DNA from: a virus
Strand: one strand, 5' to 3'
IMG/VR virus record: IMGVR_UViG_3300042923_001810
Location: 1-45,460 of that record
Length of the DNA stretch: 45,460 nt
In this document: in pieces, positions 1 to 39,413 of the stretch
Numbering within the stretch: the stretch's first letter is position 1
How the letters are laid out: every line of letters starts with the position of its first letter
The notes under the pieces: generated by a model
Database searches by the model: none
Told to the model about the DNA's origin: nothing
Seen by the model: the letters and a program-made list of their open reading frames with translations, nothing else
Position numbers and translations under genes: made by a program

Positions 1-1173
1 TTAATCAAATAAATCATTTAATTTTTCTGTTGCTATTACTTTTTGTTTAGGCATGACATGAGTGTATATATCCGCAGTAATTGATATATCGGAATGACCT
101 AATAATTCTGATACAGTCTTTAATGGAATATCTTTTTCAAATAGTTTAGTCGCAAACGTATGTCTTAAAGCATGAAATTTTTTATGTTCAATTCCTGCTT
201 TTATTAACAATGATTTGTAACTATTAAAAAGATTTTTGGCTCTTACTGGTTTACCATTTCCGGTTGCAAAAATAAATTTTTCATCAATATACGAGTTACC
301 TGCTTTAGCTTTTTCTTTATTTTGTTTCAGCTTTTGTTCTTCAAGTATTGGTATTAGCTTAGAGGGTATTGGTACGGTTCTTTGGCTTTTTTTAGTTTTA
401 GGAGCCTGCAAAATTATCTCATGCCTACTAGTGTCGTCGGCTTCAATTATTTTTACACGTTTAATAGTTTTTTCAACTCTCAACTCTGAATAATCTTTTG
501 CAATATTTGACCATTTTAGTGCCAGGAGCTCCCCTTGTCTTAATCCAGTGCCAAGAGCCATTAGAACAATAGGTTTTAAATTACTACCCTCCATTACTTC
601 TCTTAGCTTTTTAATCTCATCATTTGTAAAAATTTGAACCTCGGTATCTTCATCAAAGTTTTTTTCATTTTCTCCTGGTATAATTATTTTTTTACCTGCG
701 CAAGGATTTTTCAAAAGATATCCCTCATCAACGGCATAATTTAAAAAGCTTTTTAGTAGCTTATTTAAACTTTTTATAGAATTGCTACTCTTCCCATTTT
801 TGAAAAGCTCATTATAAAATCTTTGCAATTGTAATGACTTTAAATCGCTAATTTTTGCCCCATATATTTCACTGTTTAGAAGGTAGTTCCTATAAATGCC
901 TTCATATTTTTCAAAGCTTGTAGGTTTTACTTTTACTTTTACAACTTCGAATAGCCAAGATTTCATTAATCTACCTAGTGTAGCCTCCTTAAAGTTTATG
1001 TTCAAGCCGTTTTTTAATCCATCTAAATACTCATCTTTTTTATTCTCAGCATCTTTTTTACTCTTGCCATAGAATTCTTTTCTAATAAGCTTTCCGGCAC
1101 TATCTCTGCCTACGGAAGCTGTAACCCTGTAATAGTCAATTCCATTCTTTGAATAATTAGTTTTTACTGCCAT
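1..1173 (-). CDS. int: Tyrosine-family phage integrase
   Basis: Site-specific recombinase that would integrate and excise the prophage. The 390-residue protein has the usual order: an N-terminal arm-binding domain (about 1-60), a SAM-like core-binding domain (about 65-165) and a C-terminal catalytic domain. The catalytic set is visible: R212 in GTGLRQGE, H334 and R337 in HALRH, H360 in LGHS and the nucleophile Y370 in ADIYTHV. Length is normal for Tn916/phage-type integrases. It is the outermost gene on the left and is read leftward, so attL should lie just outside the window. A dyad and a possible promoter lie immediately upstream (1203-1227). Confidence 0.97.
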   Translation of the reverse strand: MAVKTNYSKNGIDYYRVTASVGRDSAGKLIRKEFYGKSKKDAENKKDEYLDGLKNGLNINFKEATLGRLMKSWLFEVVKVKVKPTSFEKYEGIYRNYLLNSEIYGAKISDLKSLQLQRFYNELFKNGKSSNSIKSLNKLLKSFLNYAVDEGYLLKNPCAGKKIIIPGENEKNFDEDTEVQIFTNDEIKKLREVMEGSNLKPIVLMALGTGLRQGELLALKWSNIAKDYSELRVEKTIKRVKIIEADDTSRHEIILQAPKTKKSQRTVPIPSKLIPILEEQKLKQNKEKAKAGNSYIDEKFIFATGNGKPVRAKNLFNSYKSLLIKAGIEHKKFHALRHTFATKLFEKDIPLKTVSELLGHSDISITADIYTHVMPKQKVIATEKLNDLFD

Positions 1174-15200: not shown

Positions 15201-15388
15201 AATATAAAATTGATGATGAAGTAGAATTTATTAGATATGAAAACATGGTTCATACAGGAAGGATAGTTTCAGTAAAAGGAATAGGGTTCAAAAAATATAG
15301 GATTATATTTCTAAATGGATTTCTTAGGGGATGCGAATGGATAAAAGAAAAGAATATTATCAGAATCGCAAAAGGGGGACAAGCATGA
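15197..15388 (+). CDS. Small beta-barrel-like protein
   Basis: 63 residues (MKYKIDDEVEFIRYENMVHTG then RIVSVKG) with the spacing of a small SH3-like barrel. ATG 15197 with GAGGAGG just upstream is preferred over the longer frame from 15164. It overlaps both neighbours by four bases, indicating coupled translation. No family named. Confidence 0.6.
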   Translation: MKYKIDDEVEFIRYENMVHTGRIVSVKGIGFKKYRIIFLNGFLRGCEWIKEKNIIRIAKGGQA

Positions 15389-15897
15389 AAGCTCAGATAA
15401 ACATAGAGGAAACTATAAATAAGGCTGCTAAGGAGAGTGCAAGACAAGCTATTAAAGAATATGATAAAGAGAAGAAACAAGAGCAAAGGAAGAATGTGTT
15501 TCATAATACAAGGTTATTACTTAAGCATTATAATGATTTAAGGCAGCATGTTGAAAATGCTATAGATGATGTTAGGCAATTAGAAACCGACTTGATAGAT
15601 CTTGGTGATATTGAAAGGGACGAGTTATATATACTTTCTATAAAGAGAAGTAAAAGTAAAACTTTAATCATGATAGCACATATAGATATGGCCATGGAAA
15701 TATTAAAGCAAAAGCAGATTAAGTTATGTTCGCTTGAAAAAAGTGATGCACTTAGAATGTTTTACATAGAAAAAATGACATATGAAGAGATATCTGAAAA
15801 ACTTAATTGTGGTGTTAATACATCAAGGCGTTGGGTTAATGAGATGCTAATTGAACTATCTATATTATTATTTGGAATAGAAGGTATAAAAATATAG
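15385..15897 (+). CDS. ArpU/RinA-like late-gene transcription activator
   Basis: 170-residue regulator. A charged, coiled N-terminal half is followed by a sigma-region-4-like helix-turn-helix at about 125-160: MFYIEKMTYEEISEKLNCGVNTSRRWVNEML. This is the architecture of ArpU/RinA-type proteins, which switch on packaging and structural genes of Gram-positive phages. ATG 15385 has AGGGGGAC upstream and overlaps the previous stop. It is the last gene of the middle operon, as expected for the late activator. Confidence 0.8.
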   Translation: MKAQINIEETINKAAKESARQAIKEYDKEKKQEQRKNVFHNTRLLLKHYNDLRQHVENAIDDVRQLETDLIDLGDIERDELYILSIKRSKSKTLIMIAHIDMAMEILKQKQIKLCSLEKSDALRMFYIEKMTYEEISEKLNCGVNTSRRWVNEMLIELSILLFGIEGIKI

Positions 15898-15953: not shown

Positions 15954-15992
15954 ATATATATAAAATATTAATATGGTAAAGAGGTGTTGAGA

Positions 15993-16748
15993 ATGGGTCA
16001 AAGGTGTATTCCAGATGAGGTTCTATCTGTTAGAGATATCAAATTATTTATTAAAGGTATCAAAGATGCAGATAAACAGTATAAGCAGTATTGTAAGGAT
16101 AGAAATCTAGCAACAGAGAATGGGAGAGATAAGACTATATGGGATAATATATTTACAAACGTAAGAGATGATTTTAGCAGGGAGCCTTTTCAGAATTACA
16201 CTATTGCGAGAGGTAGACTATGGGAGTTTGTAGCTGTATATAGAACCGATATAAAAATATTATATATTATAATGAAAGAAGATAGGTTTAAAGAAATAAA
16301 AGGCGATAAAAAAAGTGCTTATCACTATAGCAGAATACTTAACTCGAAAAACAATCATTTTCAAGATGTAAAGTGCGAGCAAACTACGTTATTTGAACAA
16401 GATGTGGATAGCCCGACAGCAGAATATATCTCAGATGACTTGGAGAGAATGATAGGTAGCATTAAAGATGAGGTTGTAGGATGTGTAAATATTCTTTTTA
16501 AGGTAAATGATCAGGGCGTAAGCAAAATAACTGGAAATATAGCTACATATGAACTAGACATAATTAAAACTTATAATTGGAGTAAATACATAGAAGCTAG
16601 CATAGATGATATTGCTGACACCAGCAATGATGACATGAAGAATCAACCTGAAATTAAGCTAACTCTAAAATCAAGTAAACAAAAATCAAGTGCAAATAGT
16701 ATAGTAGATGAGAAGAAAGAAAAACAAAAGAAGAAGGAAGAAAATTAA
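15993..16748 (+). CDS. DUF5986-like protein, partner of XRE-ImmA gene
   Basis: 251 residues. The N-terminal half has helices (VRDIKLFIKGIKDADKQYKQYC) and an aromatic region PFQNYTIARGRLWEFVAVY. The middle resembles a sensor-like domain ending in ATYELDIIKTYNWSKYIE, and the tail is lysine-rich and disordered. The look and the pairing with a downstream XRE-ImmA gene recall a family I remember as DUF5986, but this is not certain. ATG 15993 follows AAAGAGGTG. It shares a promoter with the next gene 32 bases downstream. Confidence 0.5.
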   Translation: MGQRCIPDEVLSVRDIKLFIKGIKDADKQYKQYCKDRNLATENGRDKTIWDNIFTNVRDDFSREPFQNYTIARGRLWEFVAVYRTDIKILYIIMKEDRFKEIKGDKKSAYHYSRILNSKNNHFQDVKCEQTTLFEQDVDSPTAEYISDDLERMIGSIKDEVVGCVNILFKVNDQGVSKITGNIATYELDIIKTYNWSKYIEASIDDIADTSNDDMKNQPEIKLTLKSSKQKSSANSIVDEKKEKQKKKEEN

Positions 16749-16773
16749 AAATTGGTCCATTTAGGAGGTTAAC

Positions 16774-16791
16774 ATGAAAAATGTTAAGTAA
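16774..16791 (+). promoter_or_regulatory. Five-codon mini-ORF overlapping the XRE-ImmA start
   Basis: AGGAGG (16763-16768) is ideally spaced for ATG 16774, which opens a five-codon frame (MKNVK) ending at TAA 16791. The real gene start at ATG 16781 lies within it in another frame at 12 bases from the ribosome site. This may throttle or couple translation of the metallopeptidase. Confidence 0.45.
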
Positions 16792-17974
16792 TAATAAAAA
16801 AGAGGCGATTGATGAGCTACACAAAGATCAAAAATTTAATATGGCAAGGCTTAAGGCAGCAAGAAAGTATAGAGGAAAAACTATTACCGATTTAGCCGAT
16901 GATATAGAAGTGTCAAAACAAGCTATATCTCAGTTTGAAAACGGGTTAGCAGTCCCGCAGTTTGAAACATTGATGAAAATAACAAGTAAACTTGGTTTTC
17001 CTAGAGAGTACTTTTTTGAGGAAGATGATTTAGAAATAGTATTAGGAAATACATATTTTAGAGCATCAAGTAAGATGACAAAAAAAGAAGAAAGTGCACA
17101 GAAGGAAAGAACAAAGATAGTAGGTAAGTTGTATCATTTTTTAAATGATTATATTGAGTTTCCTCAGTTAAATCTTCCAAAGTTTAATAAGGAATTATCT
17201 ATAGAAGAAATAGCTATGCAGCTTAGAGAATATTGGGGGTTAGGTGAAGATCCTATAACAGATATGATATATATACTTGAGAAAAATGGAATAGTGGTCA
17301 CATCGATGCCTACGAATAGTGAAAACATCGATGCTTTTACTCAGCAGCAAAACATTAATGGAGAAAAACGTTTTGTTGTAGTGTTGGGAAATGATAGAGG
17401 ATCAGCAACAAGAAGGCAATTTAGTGCTGCGCATGAACTAGGACACTTAGTTCTTCATGATGGGTTTATAGATTTAGAAGATTTGTCAAAAGAAGAGATA
17501 AGAAATATGGAAAATGAAGCACATGCTTTTGCGGCAGCATTTCTCTTACCTAGGAGTACGTTCACAAAAGATGTGGTCTTATATCCAACTGATTTAAACT
17601 ATTATAAACAACTTAAGAAGAAATGGAGAACTTCTATCTCAGCTATGTTGGTAAGAGCAAATCATTTAGAAATTTTATCATATACCTCCTATCAAGCTTT
17701 AATGAAGAAAATGAGTAGGCTAGGATGGAGGACTGAAGAGCCTTTGGATAATACTTTAATAATGAGTAAACCTACTGTATTAAAAAGGGCTGTGGATATC
17801 CTGTTAGATAACGATATTTTGGATGAGAGACAAATAATTAAAGAATTAGCAAACATGAAGCTTTCTTTACCAAGGGAAGAGGTTGAAATATTATTGAGCT
17901 TAGATGAAGGAAGATTAGAACCTAAAGAAATTGATATGAAGGTAATTGAAATGCCTGTGAGAAAAGCGTGGTAA
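16781..17974 (+). CDS. XRE regulator fused to ImmA/IrrE metallopeptidase
   Basis: 397 residues. The N-terminal XRE helix-turn-helix is at about 20-80 (ITDLADDIEVSKQAISQFENG). The C-terminal ImmA/IrrE peptidase carries an intact zinc site H218-E-L-G-H222 and a third ligand in E246-AHAFAAAFLLP. This fused type regulates stress or acts in toxin-antitoxin-like modules; IrrE homologues cleave repressors. Unlike the ImmA at 1241, its active site is complete. It forms a cassette with the gene before it, under its own promoter. Confidence 0.88.
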   Translation: MLSNNKKEAIDELHKDQKFNMARLKAARKYRGKTITDLADDIEVSKQAISQFENGLAVPQFETLMKITSKLGFPREYFFEEDDLEIVLGNTYFRASSKMTKKEESAQKERTKIVGKLYHFLNDYIEFPQLNLPKFNKELSIEEIAMQLREYWGLGEDPITDMIYILEKNGIVVTSMPTNSENIDAFTQQQNINGEKRFVVVLGNDRGSATRRQFSAAHELGHLVLHDGFIDLEDLSKEEIRNMENEAHAFAAAFLLPRSTFTKDVVLYPTDLNYYKQLKKKWRTSISAMLVRANHLEILSYTSYQALMKKMSRLGWRTEEPLDNTLIMSKPTVLKRAVDILLDNDILDERQIIKELANMKLSLPREEVEILLSLDEGRLEPKEIDMKVIEMPVRKAW

Positions 17975-18036: not shown

Positions 18037-18068
18037 TTGCCGACAGGGACTACAACGCTGTGTGGCAA
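18037..18068 (+). other. Stem-loop preceding terminator, possible small RNA
   Basis: TTGCC pairs with GGCAA and, after small bulges, ACAG pairs with CTGT around a loop near 18047-18057. The structure is followed 5 bases later by a strong terminator. Together they look like a short untranslated RNA. No known family core recognised. Confidence 0.4.
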
Positions 18069-18073
18069 CAGTT

Positions 18074-18100
18074 AAGCACTCTAGCAATAGGGTGCTTTTA
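18074..18100 (+). terminator. Intrinsic terminator with GCAA loop
   Basis: AAGCACTCTA pairs with TAGGGTGCTT (10 bp with one G-T) closed by a GCAA tetraloop, then TTTATT. Probably ends the XRE-ImmA cassette transcript. Confidence 0.75.
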
Positions 18101-18718: not shown

Positions 18719-18740
18719 ATTTGCAGTGACTACAGACAAG

Positions 18741-18918: not shown

Positions 18919-18937
18919 AATTAAGGAAGTGATAAAT

Positions 18938-19693
18938 ATGTTGAATCCTCCAATCCCAAGAATGGGAGGCAAGTCAAAATTAAGAAAAACAATAATTGAA
19001 ATGATACCTGACCATATGTGCTATGTGGAATTATTCTTTGGTGCAGGTTGGGTGTACTTTGGCAAAGAGCTTTCCAAGATAGAAGTAATAAATGACATTG
19101 ATAAAGAACTTATCAATTTGTTTAGAATGATTAAATATCATGCGCCAGAGATAGAAAGAATGTTGGAATATGAATTTTCAGGAAGAGATATCTTTGAAGA
19201 TTACAAAAATTATAGCCTTGCTAATCTTACTGAAATAAATAGAGCTGTGCGATTTCTATATTTGATATCTCAAAGCTTTGCAGGTAAAGGGAAAGATTAT
19301 GGATATGGAACTACATCAAGACCTAAACCTCAGGTGTTCTATAAAAATGTTCTAAATGATATTAAAGATAGGCTTAGAAATACTTATGTTGAGAATTTGA
19401 GCTTTGAAAAGATAATTGATAAATATGATAGAGAGCATAGCTTTTTCTTTGCAGACCCTCCTTACTTTGGACTTACTGGATATGGAAACGAGTTTGGAGA
19501 AAAAGAACATCTCTTATTAAGAGATAAGTTGACTAATATCAAAGGAAAATTTTTATTAACTATAAATGACCATGAGAAAGTAAGAGAGTGGTATAAAGAT
19601 TTTAATTTTACAGAAGTAGAGGTTGGATACTCTGTAAGTAAAGAAAAGAAAGCAAGAGGAAAGTATAAGGAGTTGGTTATTACTAATTACTAA
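18938..19693 (+). CDS. Dam-type (D12 class) adenine-N6 DNA methyltransferase
   Basis: 251 residues. Motif I region PRMGGKSKLRKTI and VELFFGAGWVYFG, NDID at about 52-55, and the catalytic motif IV D173-P-P-Y176 mark an alpha-type N6-adenine methyltransferase of the D12/MethyltransfD12 family. ATG 18938 is preferred over GTG 18929 because AAGGAAG lies 8 bases before it. No restriction partner is seen, so it is an orphan that may protect phage DNA or mark it. The hairpin just upstream may control it. Confidence 0.92.
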   Translation: MLNPPIPRMGGKSKLRKTIIEMIPDHMCYVELFFGAGWVYFGKELSKIEVINDIDKELINLFRMIKYHAPEIERMLEYEFSGRDIFEDYKNYSLANLTEINRAVRFLYLISQSFAGKGKDYGYGTTSRPKPQVFYKNVLNDIKDRLRNTYVENLSFEKIIDKYDREHSFFFADPPYFGLTGYGNEFGEKEHLLLRDKLTNIKGKFLLTINDHEKVREWYKDFNFTEVEVGYSVSKEKKARGKYKELVITNY

Positions 19694-19894: not shown

Positions 19895-20425
19895 ATGCAA
19901 GAGATTACAAACTTAATTATAAAAGCTATAGAAAAAAAGAATTTACGATTATTACTGACGTCTATAATTTTTATTATTTCATTTATTGCACCAGGATTCC
20001 TTTTTATTTTTTTTTATAAGCGAGTTTTATTTTTAAAATTAGATATAATAAAGCTATTATTTTTAGTTATAATAATAAACTTGATTGCTGCAATACCCAT
20101 GTACTTCATAAAATGGGTAAATGAAATGCTCAAACTATTTTTTTCAGATAGCATGGATGACAAACATATTAATGTAAGTGTTTATGAATCCGGCGAACAG
20201 AAATCTTATATTAAAGCATTGTTTCATACTGAAATGAATTTAGTTTTAATATGTATACATATTCTTATATGCCATATATTTAGAATATATACCAATGTTG
20301 AAGTAAACGTAGTTTTATTTTATATACTTATAAATTTATTAGATATAATTAATTTTATTAAAAATATAGCTAATATCAATAAGGTTGAAAAAATAAAAAA
20401 AACTAAGAAGGATGTTAATATATAA
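19895..20425 (+). CDS. Four-helix membrane protein, moron
   Basis: 176 residues with about four membrane segments: LLLTSIIFIISFIAPGFLF, LLFLVIIINLIAAIPMYF, LVLICIHILICHIF and VVLFYILINLLDIINF. A soluble loop of about 35 residues (SDSMDDKHINVSVYESGEQK) lies after helix two. GAGAGAGGGTG precedes ATG 19895 and a terminator follows 5 bases after the stop, so it is a single-gene unit between methylase and late operon. Superinfection exclusion is a possible role. No family recognised. Confidence 0.65.
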   Translation: MQEITNLIIKAIEKKNLRLLLTSIIFIISFIAPGFLFIFFYKRVLFLKLDIIKLLFLVIIINLIAAIPMYFIKWVNEMLKLFFSDSMDDKHINVSVYESGEQKSYIKALFHTEMNLVLICIHILICHIFRIYTNVEVNVVLFYILINLLDIINFIKNIANINKVEKIKKTKKDVNI

Positions 20426-20430
20426 TTATT

Positions 20431-20454
20431 GAGCTCTTAACAGGGCTCTTTTTT
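20431..20454 (+). terminator. Terminator of the membrane-protein moron
   Basis: GAGCTC pairs with GGGCTC (one G-T) around TTAACA, then T6. It is immediately followed by the minus-strand terminator of the RNA at 20463-20656, giving tail-to-tail ends. Confidence 0.8.
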
Positions 20455-20462
20455 CATATGCA

Positions 20463-20487
20463 AAATAAAAAGGCTACCGAAGTAGCC
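20463..20487 (-). terminator. UUCG-loop terminator of the minus-strand RNA
   Basis: On the minus strand six perfect pairs close a TTCG tetraloop and are followed by T5-A-T4. The extra-stable tetraloop and T tract make the direction of transcription clear. Confidence 0.85.
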
Positions 20488-20656
20488 AAATTCCGTTGAA
20501 GTGAAACCATGATATATTTAATTGTTTTGTTTAATAGTCGTTTTAAGCTCTCGGATTTCCATCCGAGGGACACATCATAATTAATGTATAAATATAATTA
20601 TGACTATTGTCCGCCTAGGCAGCTTAAAGCGAAACATCATGGTTTTCATCTCCCAT
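20463..20656 (-). ncRNA. Structured small RNA, antisense to the late operon
   Basis: Read on the minus strand, the segment ends in GGCTAC-TTCG-GTAGCC-TTTTTATTTT (20463-20487), a textbook terminator. TATAAT (complement of 20662-20667) lies at the other end as a possible -10. Between them the strand folds with perfect stems (plus coordinates): 20504-20513 with 20636-20645 (10 bp), 20542-20549 with 20621-20628 (8 bp), 20550-20556 with 20561-20567 (7 bp), 20568-20572 with 20608-20612 (5 bp) and 20576-20583 with 20595-20602 (8 bp). The middle stems abut without unpaired bases. 20533-20539 can pair with 20602-20608, making a pseudoknot. No ORF. I do not recognise a named RNA family. Confidence 0.75.
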
Positions 20657-20746
20657 ATTCAATTATAGTTAATATAGTATATACAATTAAAAAATAAATA
20701 TGTACATAAGATTTAGTAACTTAATTAGTGAAGGTGAGGTAATAGT

Positions 20747-20908
20747 ATGTCAATAGATGTAAAGGACCTTATGAGGGATATAAAAGAAAATCACAGGAAA
20801 CTGGACAGGTGCAGTAAGCATGACTTCTCAATAGATGCAACACCAGATAAAAAGTTTAGCAAGATGTATAAGGTGCTAACTCTGAGGAGAAGTAGAGGTC
20901 TCAACTAA
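20747..20908 (+). CDS. Small phage protein upstream of HNH
   Basis: 53 residues, basic, with a helix (VKDLMRDIKENHRKLDRC) followed by SKHDF and a C-terminus YKVLTLRRSRGLN. GAAGGTGAGG lies before ATG 20747. Small proteins of this kind often stand just before the packaging genes in clostridial phages; a cysteine-histidine pair (RCSKHDF) could be half of a metal site. No family named. Confidence 0.6.
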   Translation: MSIDVKDLMRDIKENHRKLDRCSKHDFSIDATPDKKFSKMYKVLTLRRSRGLN

Positions 20909-20933: not shown

Positions 20934-21212
20934 ATGGCAAGACATCCTGAGATATATCAAACATCTGAGTGGAAGAAGTCAAGACGATTTGTAATGATTA
21001 GGTCGAATGGATTATGTGAAAGGTGCATGAAGAAAGGGAAGATTAAACCAGGTAAGATAGTTCATCATAAGAAATGGTTAACTGATGAAAACAAAACTAA
21101 TTGGAACATTGCATATGATCCAGATAACCTTGAATACATCTGTAATGATTGTCATGAGGAAGAACATGATAGAAGTATAGGACTGCAGAAGTTTTTAACC
21201 CCCCCGGGGTAA
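20934..21212 (+). CDS. HNH endonuclease of the packaging module
   Basis: 92-residue HNH nuclease. It has a zinc knuckle CERCMKKG, the motif IVHHKKWL, the central N in DPDNLEYICNDCHEEEH, and the ends of the ββα-metal fold. In HK97-like phages with this order the HNH protein works with the terminase and portal in cutting DNA at cos. ATG 20934 follows GAAAGGA. Its last codons and the following GC-rich stretch lie where cos is expected. Confidence 0.93.
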   Translation: MARHPEIYQTSEWKKSRRFVMIRSNGLCERCMKKGKIKPGKIVHHKKWLTDENKTNWNIAYDPDNLEYICNDCHEEEHDRSIGLQKFLTPPG

Positions 21213-21300
21213 TGAAAAATAACCTAGCCCACGGACACCGTGTGTCCAAGAGAACATATCACTCGAGGCTCGCGCGTATAGGGGGGTGTGGTGTAAAGGT
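21186..21300. other. Probable cos region
   Basis: Between the HNH end and TerS lies an unusually GC-rich island in AT-rich DNA: CCCCCCCGGGG at the end of the HNH gene, a perfect dyad GGACAC-CGT-GTGTCC (21233-21247), then CTCGAGGCTCGCGCG and a G6 run. Its position between HNH and small terminase matches cos of HK97-like phages. The cut site cannot be read from sequence. Confidence 0.5.
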
Positions 21301-29764: not shown

Positions 29765-32113
29765 ATGTCGATTGTAAAAAATTTAATGGTCAGGGCAGGA
29801 GCAGATTTCTCAGCAATGAAAAAAGAGATGGAAAATGCTAAGAAAACAATACAGAACTTTAAAAACTCCTTTTCCAGCATAATGGGAGGTCTAAAAACTG
29901 CCTTGATTGGTCTTGCTATAGGTAAGACAATTAAAGACTCAGTGCAAAGTGCCATGGAAGTTGAATCAGCCTTAAACCAGATAAAACGAATCATGGGCGA
30001 AAGTAGCAATCAATTCTTAAAGTGGGCGAATGATACAGCAATAGCCTTTGGAATGTCTAAAGGTGAAGCTACTAAATATGGTGCTGTTTATGGAAATTTA
30101 TTAAGTTCCTTCACTAAATCCACTGGCGAAACAATGAAGTACACTGAGGAACTTTTAAAATCTGCAGCAATAGTAGCAAGTGGAACAGGAAGATCCATGC
30201 AAGATGTTTTGGATAGAATTAGAAGTGGTATTCTAGGAAACACAGAAAGTATAGAGGACCTTTCAATAAATGTGAACGTGGCAATGCTTGAGAGCACAGA
30301 GGCATTTAAAAAATTTGCTAATAATAAATCATGGAATCAATTAAGTTTCCAAACTCAGCAGCAGATCAGAGTAATGGCTATATTAGAGCAAGCCAGCAAG
30401 AAGTATGGAGACTCCTTAAATCAAAATACAGCTTCAGCACAAGCTCAATTTGTAGCTCAGCTTAAAAATCTACAATTAAGCTTAGGGCAGGCATTCCTGC
30501 CAATTTATAATGCCATACTGCCAGCATTAACAGCTTTGGCTGCTAGTTTAGCTAATATTATGGGTGCTATTGCTCAGTTTAGTCAAGCACTCTTTGGAAA
30601 TGCAGCTTCCAAGCAAGCAGCACAAGTTAAAACTACAGCTCAGCAAGCAGGTGCAGTAAGTGGTCTTGGTGATGCCTATAAGAAAGCTGGCAAAGAAGCC
30701 AAAGGAGCACTAGCAGGATTTGATGAAATAAACTCACTTGCAGATAAATCAGGTGGCAGCGATGATGCATCTTCACTTGATGGAGCTGCATCTATGCCTG
30801 TTGGAAATATGCCTATGAACTTTGATACTAATGCACCAGAGGTTAGTGCAAAAATACAAGAAATGGCTAACACAGTTAAAGCAGTCTTTGCAGAAATGGC
30901 AGCAGTTATATCAGAAAATAAAAATGTGGTCGTAAGTGCATTAGCTGGTATATTAGCAGGTTTTGCATCTTACCAAATAATAAGCAATTGGAGTGATATA
31001 GTATTAGTTTTAGATAAAGCATTCAAAGCACTATCGGTAACTATGTCAGGATTTTCAATGCCTATCCTTGCTATGTCAGCATTAATAGCTTTATTGGTAG
31101 GTAATATAGTTTATTTGTGGAGGACTAACGAAGAGTTTAGAAACTCTGTTATTGAAGTGTGGACTCAAATAAAAACTTTTGTAACTACTATAGTTAATGA
31201 TATGTGGTCAATCGTCAAGGAAATCTGGGATAAGTATGGACAAACATTAATTGAAAACATTGCTGGATTTATGAAATCTATTCAAAACATAATACAAGCA
31301 GCCTGGGAGAGCTTTATAAAACCTATAATTACTAATGCATTAAATATGCTTTCGACATTATGGACTGAGCATCTAAGTGGATTAGTTTCCATGATAGGCG
31401 AGTTTATAATGAAGCTAGTTAATTTTGCTTTAGAAATCTGGAATGGTTTTATTGCTCCTGTAGTTGGATATTTGATTGAAACTTTTGGACCTGTATTTGC
31501 TGATGTATTCAATTCTGCTATTAATACAATTGGTATGCTTATAAGTATTGCTGCAGATGTAGCAAAAGGATTGTTTAAATCTCTTGGTGGCATTTTAGAC
31601 TTTCTTTCAGGAACTTTCTCTGGAAATTGGGCTAAGGCATGGAATGGAGTTAGAGATATATTTAAAGGTGTCTTTGACAGCTTATATGCCATAGTAAAAG
31701 TACCTTTAAATTCTATTATTGATGCAATAAACACAGTAATAAGTGGATTGAACAAAATACATTTTGATTTGCCTGATTGGCTGCCTGGTAACTTAGGAGG
31801 TAAGAGCTTTGGTATAACCATAGGCAAAATCCCAAAGCTTGCTAAAGGTGGAATAACAAATGGTGAAATGACTGCTATTGTAGGCGATAATCCAGGAGGA
31901 AAAGAAGTTATATCACCACTTGATGATTTAATGGACATGATAGGCACTTCGGTTGGAAATGCAATGATGGCTGCAAATCAGTTTAATTCTAATAATAATC
32001 AAGATATCAATCTAAACCTAAATATTGATGGTACAACCTTTGCAAGAGCAACTTACTCATATAATCAAAGGGAATCAAGCAGAGTTGGAAATGCAATGAT
32101 AATTACAACATAG
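29765..32113 (+). CDS. Tape measure protein
   Basis: 782 residues. The N-terminus (MVRAGADFSAMKKEMENAKKTIQNFKNSFSS) and MQDVLDRIRSGILGNTESIEDL belong to the tape measure family. Long alanine-rich helical stretches and several hydrophobic segments (VSALAGILAGFASYQII, MPILAMSALIALLVGNIVYLW) follow, and the end GIPKLAKGG-like IPKLAKGGITN...GGKEVISPLDDLMD is conserved. It sets tail length; by the common rule of about 1.5 angstrom per residue the tail would be near 115 nm. GGGAGG precedes ATG 29765. Confidence 0.95.
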   Translation: MSIVKNLMVRAGADFSAMKKEMENAKKTIQNFKNSFSSIMGGLKTALIGLAIGKTIKDSVQSAMEVESALNQIKRIMGESSNQFLKWANDTAIAFGMSKGEATKYGAVYGNLLSSFTKSTGETMKYTEELLKSAAIVASGTGRSMQDVLDRIRSGILGNTESIEDLSINVNVAMLESTEAFKKFANNKSWNQLSFQTQQQIRVMAILEQASKKYGDSLNQNTASAQAQFVAQLKNLQLSLGQAFLPIYNAILPALTALAASLANIMGAIAQFSQALFGNAASKQAAQVKTTAQQAGAVSGLGDAYKKAGKEAKGALAGFDEINSLADKSGGSDDASSLDGAASMPVGNMPMNFDTNAPEVSAKIQEMANTVKAVFAEMAAVISENKNVVVSALAGILAGFASYQIISNWSDIVLVLDKAFKALSVTMSGFSMPILAMSALIALLVGNIVYLWRTNEEFRNSVIEVWTQIKTFVTTIVNDMWSIVKEIWDKYGQTLIENIAGFMKSIQNIIQAAWESFIKPIITNALNMLSTLWTEHLSGLVSMIGEFIMKLVNFALEIWNGFIAPVVGYLIETFGPVFADVFNSAINTIGMLISIAADVAKGLFKSLGGILDFLSGTFSGNWAKAWNGVRDIFKGVFDSLYAIVKVPLNSIIDAINTVISGLNKIHFDLPDWLPGNLGGKSFGITIGKIPKLAKGGITNGEMTAIVGDNPGGKEVISPLDDLMDMIGTSVGNAMMAANQFNSNNNQDINLNLNIDGTTFARATYSYNQRESSRVGNAMIITT

Positions 32114-38409: not shown

Positions 38410-38435
38410 AAAAAATAGTAGATATAGAATGTCTT

Positions 38436-38516
38436 CGATAATAGCAAACTTATCTAAAGGTAAGGACGCAAAGCTATGGGCCTAAAGCTGATGCTATGGT
38501 AGCCAAGTTGCCGAAA
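38436..38516 (+). promoter_or_regulatory. Cyclic di-GMP class I riboswitch (GEMM-I)
   Basis: The aptamer core is clearly readable: AGCAAACTTATCTAAAGGTA, followed by GGACGCAAAGC, then TATGGGCCTAAAG and ATGGTAGCC-AAGTTGCCG. These match the conserved GEMM-I parts: GCAAAC, the P2 stem with its tetraloop-like cap, GGACGCAAAGC, GGxCxAAAG as the receptor, and GCCxxGTTGCC. The ligand is c-di-GMP, the bacterial signal for surface life. Sequence family knowledge; binding is inferred. It controls the secreted stalk-domain gene 125 bases downstream. Confidence 0.93.
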
Positions 38517-38640: not shown

Positions 38641-39294
38641 TTGAAAAAAACACTAAAAACAGGAGCAGTTGCATTAAGTCTTTTATTAGGAACTGGTATC
38701 TTCGCTCAAACTAATGTGTATGCGAAAGAAACACCGGGTAAAGTACATGATACGAAAGTTAAGGTGGTACAAACTTCTGATGAAGACAAAAATCCATTAG
38801 GAAAAGCTTTATCATTGGGATTATTAAAACATAGTAATGATACAAAATTAACTTTACCACCAGTGATTAAACTGGGAGGTATTTTGATACCTGTAAATGC
38901 TATTACAAAATCATTTGAAGCAGATTTGGTTTGGGATAGTGAAAATAAAGTAGTTACAATAACTAAAGGGGATGTAACAATAGTTATTAACTTGGAAAGT
39001 AAGGTAGCTACAGTAAATGGAACAGAAGTGGTATTGCAAGATGACAGCATATCTAATAATGGAACACTTGTACTATTGACATTTATAGCTCAAAATCTTG
39101 GTATAGATTTAGCTATAACCGACGAAGAACAAATTATTGATGAAGCACAAGTAATTGATGGTACTCAAACATCAGATAGCGAAACTGGTACACAGGAAAA
39201 TACATCAACAACCAGTGCTGATGTACAAGCTCTAACCAGTACAGATGTACAAGCACCAATCGATAATGCAGTTGTAACGGATACTCAGAATTAA
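38641..39294 (+). CDS. Secreted stalk-domain protein (copper amine oxidase N-like)
   Basis: 217 residues. A signal peptide (MKKTLKTGAVALSLLLGTG with VYA before KE, cleavage near 29) is followed by a copper-amine-oxidase N-terminal-like stalk domain at about 75-160 (PPVIKLGGILIPVNAITKSFEADLVWDSENKVVTI, then TVNGTEVVLQDDSISNNGTLVLLTFIAQ). A threonine- and glutamine-rich tail lacks LPXTG. Such domains are common on clostridial surface proteins. The start is TTG 38641 with GGGAGTGG. Control by c-di-GMP suggests a role in attachment or biofilm; this gene is a lysogenic conversion candidate. Confidence 0.85.
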   Translation: MKKTLKTGAVALSLLLGTGIFAQTNVYAKETPGKVHDTKVKVVQTSDEDKNPLGKALSLGLLKHSNDTKLTLPPVIKLGGILIPVNAITKSFEADLVWDSENKVVTITKGDVTIVINLESKVATVNGTEVVLQDDSISNNGTLVLLTFIAQNLGIDLAITDEEQIIDEAQVIDGTQTSDSETGTQENTSTTSADVQALTSTDVQAPIDNAVVTDTQN

Positions 39295-39347
39295 TAATGA
39301 ATTATATGTAGTTCTAATTATTTTAGATATTATATAAAGAACATTTT

Positions 39348-39377
39348 AAAAGTACACCTAAAAAAGGTGTACTTTTT
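39348..39377 (+). terminator. Terminator of the stalk-domain gene
   Basis: AAAAGTACACCT pairs with AGGTGTACTTTT (12 perfect pairs), followed by TATTTT. Works in both directions. Confidence 0.85.
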
Positions 39378-39413
39378 ATTTTCAACTTTACGCAATATAA
39401 GTTAAGTAGTCGC

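Follow-up and report, generated by a model that had tools for sequence, protein, structure and literature searches.

To our knowledge, few stand-alone structured RNAs have been described in phages of Gram-positive bacteria, and most of these are without explanation. The packaging RNA of phi29-type phages (pRNA, RF00044) is branched, lies near the packaging genes, carries a self-complementary loop sequence and is similar in size to the RNA considered here. Some type I toxin mRNAs have a start region that long-range base pairing keeps shut. The phage-encoded small RNAs OOP, aQ, IsrK and others have been reviewed (PMC12197685). A strongly folded RNA bounded by a terminator in phage cargo space would be an inexpensive subject for tests of RNA-based functions in lysogeny or defence, and we describe a candidate for such an RNA, statistically strong and an orphan, of which a single copy is known.

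Genomic setting

The window is an IMG/VR virus record, 45,460 bases long, from a temperate phage whose host group is Clostridia-type bacteria. An integrase gene (1-1173, minus strand) and genes for repressor-type HTH and ImmA/IrrE-like proteins lie at its left end, followed by a sigma-like regulator (15331-15897) and a cargo stretch, after which comes a short ORF at 20747. That ORF is the first of the late genes, with an HNH protein from 20934, the small terminase from 21312 and the large terminase from 21670; the phage has an ordinary two-subunit terminase with an HNH protein. The nearest large terminases come from genomes of Clostridium, other Clostridia and Paenibacillus, and from related IMG/VR contigs; one of these contigs (L011, metagenome 3300042922) encodes a large terminase that is 98% identical, and it ends short of the RNA region. 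Between the HNH and small terminase genes, a C-run, palindromes and a G-run at 21195-21290 form, judging by their sequence and position, a probable cos region.

The DNA preceding the segment under study (20463-20656) looks like a variable cargo region. It encodes a RmrT/RmrA pair recognized by PADLOC on the plus strand (15984-17974), where RmrT is DUF5986 and RmrA has an HTH plus an ImmA/IrrE protease domain, and which we take to belong with the system named RosmerTA, that is, a RosmerTA-like toxin-antitoxin or defence pair carried on the phage. A Dam-type methylase follows (18929-19693, its match just under the NCBIfam cut-off), and then an orphan membrane protein on the plus strand (19895-20425), convergent with the segment; relatives of this gene were sought as a possible partner of the RNA, and none was found. 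Two smaller elements occur in the same stretch. At 18046-18100 (+), a GGGACTACAA element stands immediately 5′ of an intrinsic terminator in a layout comparable to one in contig L004 at 1912; blastn found no match to it in phages, and it may represent a small, conserved element of leader or terminator type. At 18726 there is GTGACTACA plus a terminator. Further along the record, a c-di-GMP-I riboswitch (38433-38515, +, 78.8 bits) lies upstream of a gene for a copper-amine-oxidase-N-domain protein (38641-39294), and the two immediately precede the holin and choline-binding lysozyme genes; this cargo gene is apparently under c-di-GMP control.

Strength of the fold

The segment is intergenic: no ORF of at least 50 aa covers it, and the longest short ORF that touches it (39 aa) passes through its terminator. 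The minus strand of 20463-20656 folds with a free energy of −62.9 kcal/mol, compared to −35.0 ± 3.9 kcal/mol for shuffled sequences (z = −7.1, 0 of 200 shuffles). Without the terminator, the core of the minus strand folds at −47.6 kcal/mol compared to −22.8 ± 3.5 kcal/mol (z = −7.1), and the best of 3000 shuffles had a free energy of −40.7 kcal/mol. The original prediction of a segment that carries no gene and folds strongly on the minus strand is borne out by these values. When all 1812 windows of 190 nt in the record were ranked by a regression on GC content, a framing that is non-optimal for the segment, its minus strand ranked second and its plus strand fourth. Equally extreme folds after this correction occur at 30451-30640 (−), within a long late gene, and at 39201-39390 (−), where a hairpin resembling a terminator accompanies the 3′ end of the gene for the amine-oxidase-domain protein.

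Strand and boundaries of the predicted transcript

The plus strand of the segment is as strongly folded as the minus strand (−60.0 kcal/mol, z = −7.3), and the fold alone therefore carries no strand information; the wobble counts do not decide between the strands either. We favor the minus strand because of its terminator, the GNRA loop in helix P4 and a TATAAT box at 20667-20662. The intrinsic terminator (20472-20487) has the hairpin GGCUAC-UUCG-GUAGCC followed by UUUUUAUUU, with a cUUCGg loop and a U-run; it is a genuine terminator motif on the minus strand only, and chance alone would give 0.4 terminators in the 1.8-kb region scanned. The UUCG-capped terminator that had been predicted is present here, and the further claim that the RNA points away from the packaging operon is supported. 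The TATAAT is a perfect −10 box 6-7 nt before the predicted start. Its accompanying −35 element is poor (3/6), a promoter consensus scan did not list it, and the same hexamer occurs 53 times on the minus strand of this AT-rich window, which makes the box weak support when taken alone. The structured RNA is probably transcribed from the minus strand, with its predicted 5′ end near 20656 and its 3′ end near 20465.

These boundaries place the RNA apart from its neighbors. From about 20656 to 20465, it shares no bases with the late genes (starting with the ORF at 20747) or with the convergent gene (ending at 20425), whose own intrinsic terminator on the plus strand (20431-20448) separates the convergent transcript from the RNA. 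With two separate terminators, the units are kept apart, and the RNA is antisense to no gene. The claim of transcription against the late operon, taken in a functional sense, is not supported.

If the functional strand were instead the plus strand, the segment would be a cis-acting 5′ leader of the HNH-terminase operon, serving as an RNA-stability or attenuation element with its promoter near 20437-20466. The plus-strand fold (z = −7.3) is compatible with such a leader, as are the continuity of helix P2 on the plus strand, where G-U pairs replace the C/A of the minus strand, and a weak promoter-like site at 20437-20466. However, this site shares bases with the upstream terminator, and its score of 9/12 is one at which 11.7 sites are expected by chance in the scanned region. 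The structure is followed on the plus strand by no terminator or U-run, and relatives with the same operon are without any such leader. We consider a leader function unlikely.

Architecture of the predicted RNA

The minus-strand fold is closed by a 5′/3′ helix, P1, whose 5′ arm (20634-20653) pairs with its 3′ arm (20498-20515) and masks a GGAG and AUGs at the 5′ end of the RNA. Inside it, P2 pairs 20621-20632 with 20538-20549 (inverted repeat I2), P3 (20568-20612, inverted repeat I10) consists of GGACA/UGUCC and a 10-bp AU-rich upper stem, and P4 (20550-20567, inverted repeat I20) is the 7-bp hairpin CUCGGAU-GGAA-AUCCGAG with a GNRA tetraloop on this strand. A palindrome, GCCTAGGC (GCCUAGGC on the minus strand), occupies 20613-20620 either as a 2-bp mini-hairpin or unpaired. 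The original prediction counted four stems that abut with no unpaired bases. The elements do abut at these positions, including the relevant part of P2 (20542-20549 with 20621-20628), but the palindrome forms only 2 bp, and the arrangement is better described as three good helices and a marginal one. The palindrome could self-pair between molecules; the cofold energy of a dimer was uninformative.

A pseudoknot had also been suggested. The strand GACUAUU (20533-20539, inverted repeat I19) is indeed complementary to 20602-20608 over 7 bp, but this pairing competes with P3a/P3b and its significance is marginal. Counting that loop alone, shuffles of the linker give p = 0.004-0.009, but when every loop is considered, 17-23% of shuffles contain a match as long as the best one here (8 bp); because of the latter value (p = 0.17-0.23), we treat the pseudoknot as possible but unproven.

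Searches for families and homologues

The covariance search of Rfam 15 returned no family at the gathering score (best permissive E-value 0.74, all matches at the level of chance and far below gathering), nor did the phi29-type pRNA model match, in keeping with the earlier statement that no known family was recognized. With its improbable fold (0/200 and 0/3000 shuffles), the segment retains its description as an uncharacterized structured RNA.

No homologue was found by blastn in distant mode among annotated phages and plasmids, where the single match, 46 nt from a Fusobacterium phage, fell on the AT-rich upstream DNA and was rejected; by scanning viral and genome contigs for exact and gapped patterns, where the 20 + 6 hits had no covariance-model match; or by DNA searches of Clostridium genus and family genomes, the genus hits being short AT-rich pieces. 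A covariance model built from the single sequence (R1), which scores its own source at 126 bits, likewise found none in genus, order, class and other genome groups. Two weak full-length hits were discarded, one of 27.5 bits, which lay within a 993-aa ORF and in which many pairs were broken, and one of 21.4 bits, whose alignment was gapped and fell on AT-rich sequence. Altogether the searches covered IMG/VR, INPHARED, PLSDB and about a thousand genomes. They can miss diverged RNAs, and records nearly identical to the window, from its own source, may have been hidden from them; 'orphan' here means orphan in the data searched, with metagenomes outside that scope.

In relatives that share the packaging module, different genes occupy this place, and the intergenic region before the HNH gene contains no comparable fold. 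In two of them (L002 and L003, ~2860-2895), a tRNA T-arm-like hairpin, CTCGGTTCAAATCCGAG, lies just 5′ of the HNH gene. It resembles P4, but the flanking structure is not common to both, and we rejected it as a relative; ARAGORN found no tRNA in L002, and the hairpin is possibly a tRNA remnant.

We also weighed whether the inverted repeats act as DNA, for example by binding a protein or forming a cruciform where the packaging operon begins, or whether they are the remnant of a small inserted element. Both strands fold alike, the HNH and terminase genes are close, and the relatives carry no related sequence at this position, all of which would suit a DNA-level role. On the other side, a terminator with a U-run and a UUCG loop is a feature of a transcript, the 45,460-base record holds no second copy of the element, no target-site duplication was seen, and the region at about 21195-21290, with its C-run, appears from its sequence to be the better cos-like candidate. 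A role as DNA is decidedly unlikely.

A proposed trans-acting accessory RNA and its alternatives

The segment is intergenic and has its own terminator, as a stand-alone sRNA does. Taking this together with the fold (z = −7.1) and the −10 box at 20662-20667 (−), we propose, with a probability of about 0.5, that the segment (20465-20656, −) encodes an independent accessory sRNA unit of about 190 nt on the minus strand of a temperate Clostridia-type phage, and that the RNA acts in trans. The unit would be transcribed on its own, and its RNA would fold into a compact, multi-branched structure, closed by the long 5′/3′ helix and ended by its own intrinsic terminator. It would join the accessory (moron) elements that make up the variable cargo ahead of the packaging genes. 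Its product, a stable and structured small RNA, would most likely bind a protein or a host RNA during lysogeny, rather than pair with the late operon. Trans action is favored by elimination, because no transcript is overlapped by the RNA and its loops show no more than chance complementarity to phage starts: when the accessible loops were compared with the phage start regions as potential trans targets, the best duplexes were no better than those of shuffled seeds. A more specific version, in which the RNA founds a new compact, possibly pseudoknotted phage RNA family that binds a host protein and serves as defence or counter-defence cargo beside the RosmerTA-like pair and the Dam methylase, is a long shot.

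The masked start region raises the question of a small mRNA. A 22-codon ORF, MKTMMFRFKLPRRTIVIIIFIH (20581-20649, minus strand), has an internal start that yields 19 aa behind a GGGAG, so that the transcript could encode a basic, hydrophobic peptide of 19-22 aa whose GGGAG/AUG is shut by P1, in the manner of type I toxin mRNAs in their dormant state. The GGGAG lies 9 nt before AUGAUG, and P1 sequesters both the GGAG and the AUG, with an unpaired probability near 0; the 5′/3′ pairing that hides a start site in type I toxin mRNAs is found here by computation. Clostridial prophages commonly carry type I toxins, but these have 34-59 aa, a hydrophobic N-terminus and a charged C-terminus (PMC6563280), whereas the present peptide departs from both the typical size and the typical charge pattern, having a basic N-terminus and the pattern reversed. 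Moreover, a Shine-Dalgarno sequence plus ORF of this kind arises in 5.6% of shuffles, no antisense promoter was recognized in the promoter scan, and tblastn found no homologous peptide in phages. The ORF is probably fortuitous, and a toxin mRNA is highly improbable.

The main idea of the original prediction, that the RNA gates late expression in cis as a counter-transcript, draws on the position of the RNA at the operon entrance, its direction away from the operon and a predicted −10 box that shares a short region with any late promoter, but we find it barely credible, since the RNA, as its bounds are predicted, lacks the overlap with its target that defines a cis-antisense transcript (no ORF overlap, separate terminators), its loops are complementary to phage start regions at chance level only, and the late genes, starting at 20747, lie upstream of the RNA start, so that the anatomy does not show a gating counter-transcript. 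Interference between the divergent promoters of the RNA and the late genes may nonetheless occur. The other suggestions made originally, an anti-defence RNA or a ribozyme-like element, are neither favored nor disfavored by these results.

Comparison with known systems

The proposed trans-acting RNA resembles the phi29-type pRNA in its size, branching, closeness to packaging genes and self-complementary sequence, but differs in having no Rfam match, in accompanying an ordinary two-subunit terminase with an HNH protein, and in being missing from relatives with the same terminase. Long-range pairing is predicted to close its start region, a feature also found in certain type I toxin mRNAs. Its prophage location and its short, predicted transcript further recall the type I toxin-antitoxin mRNAs of clostridial prophages (PMC6563280), unlike which its peptide is too short and reversed in charge pattern, and no antisense partner is recognized. 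OOP and aQ are each antisense to a named phage gene, whereas the candidate overlaps none and has no Rfam relation to them; nevertheless, like OOP, aQ and IsrK, it would be a short RNA carried by a phage, located outside coding sequence and equipped with control signals of its own (PMC12197685). Finally, although it has about 190 nt rather than several hundred and no Rfam match, it shares with ROOL, GOLLD and other large ornate phage and prophage RNAs the character of a multi-branched orphan RNA located outside genes (PMC12286853).
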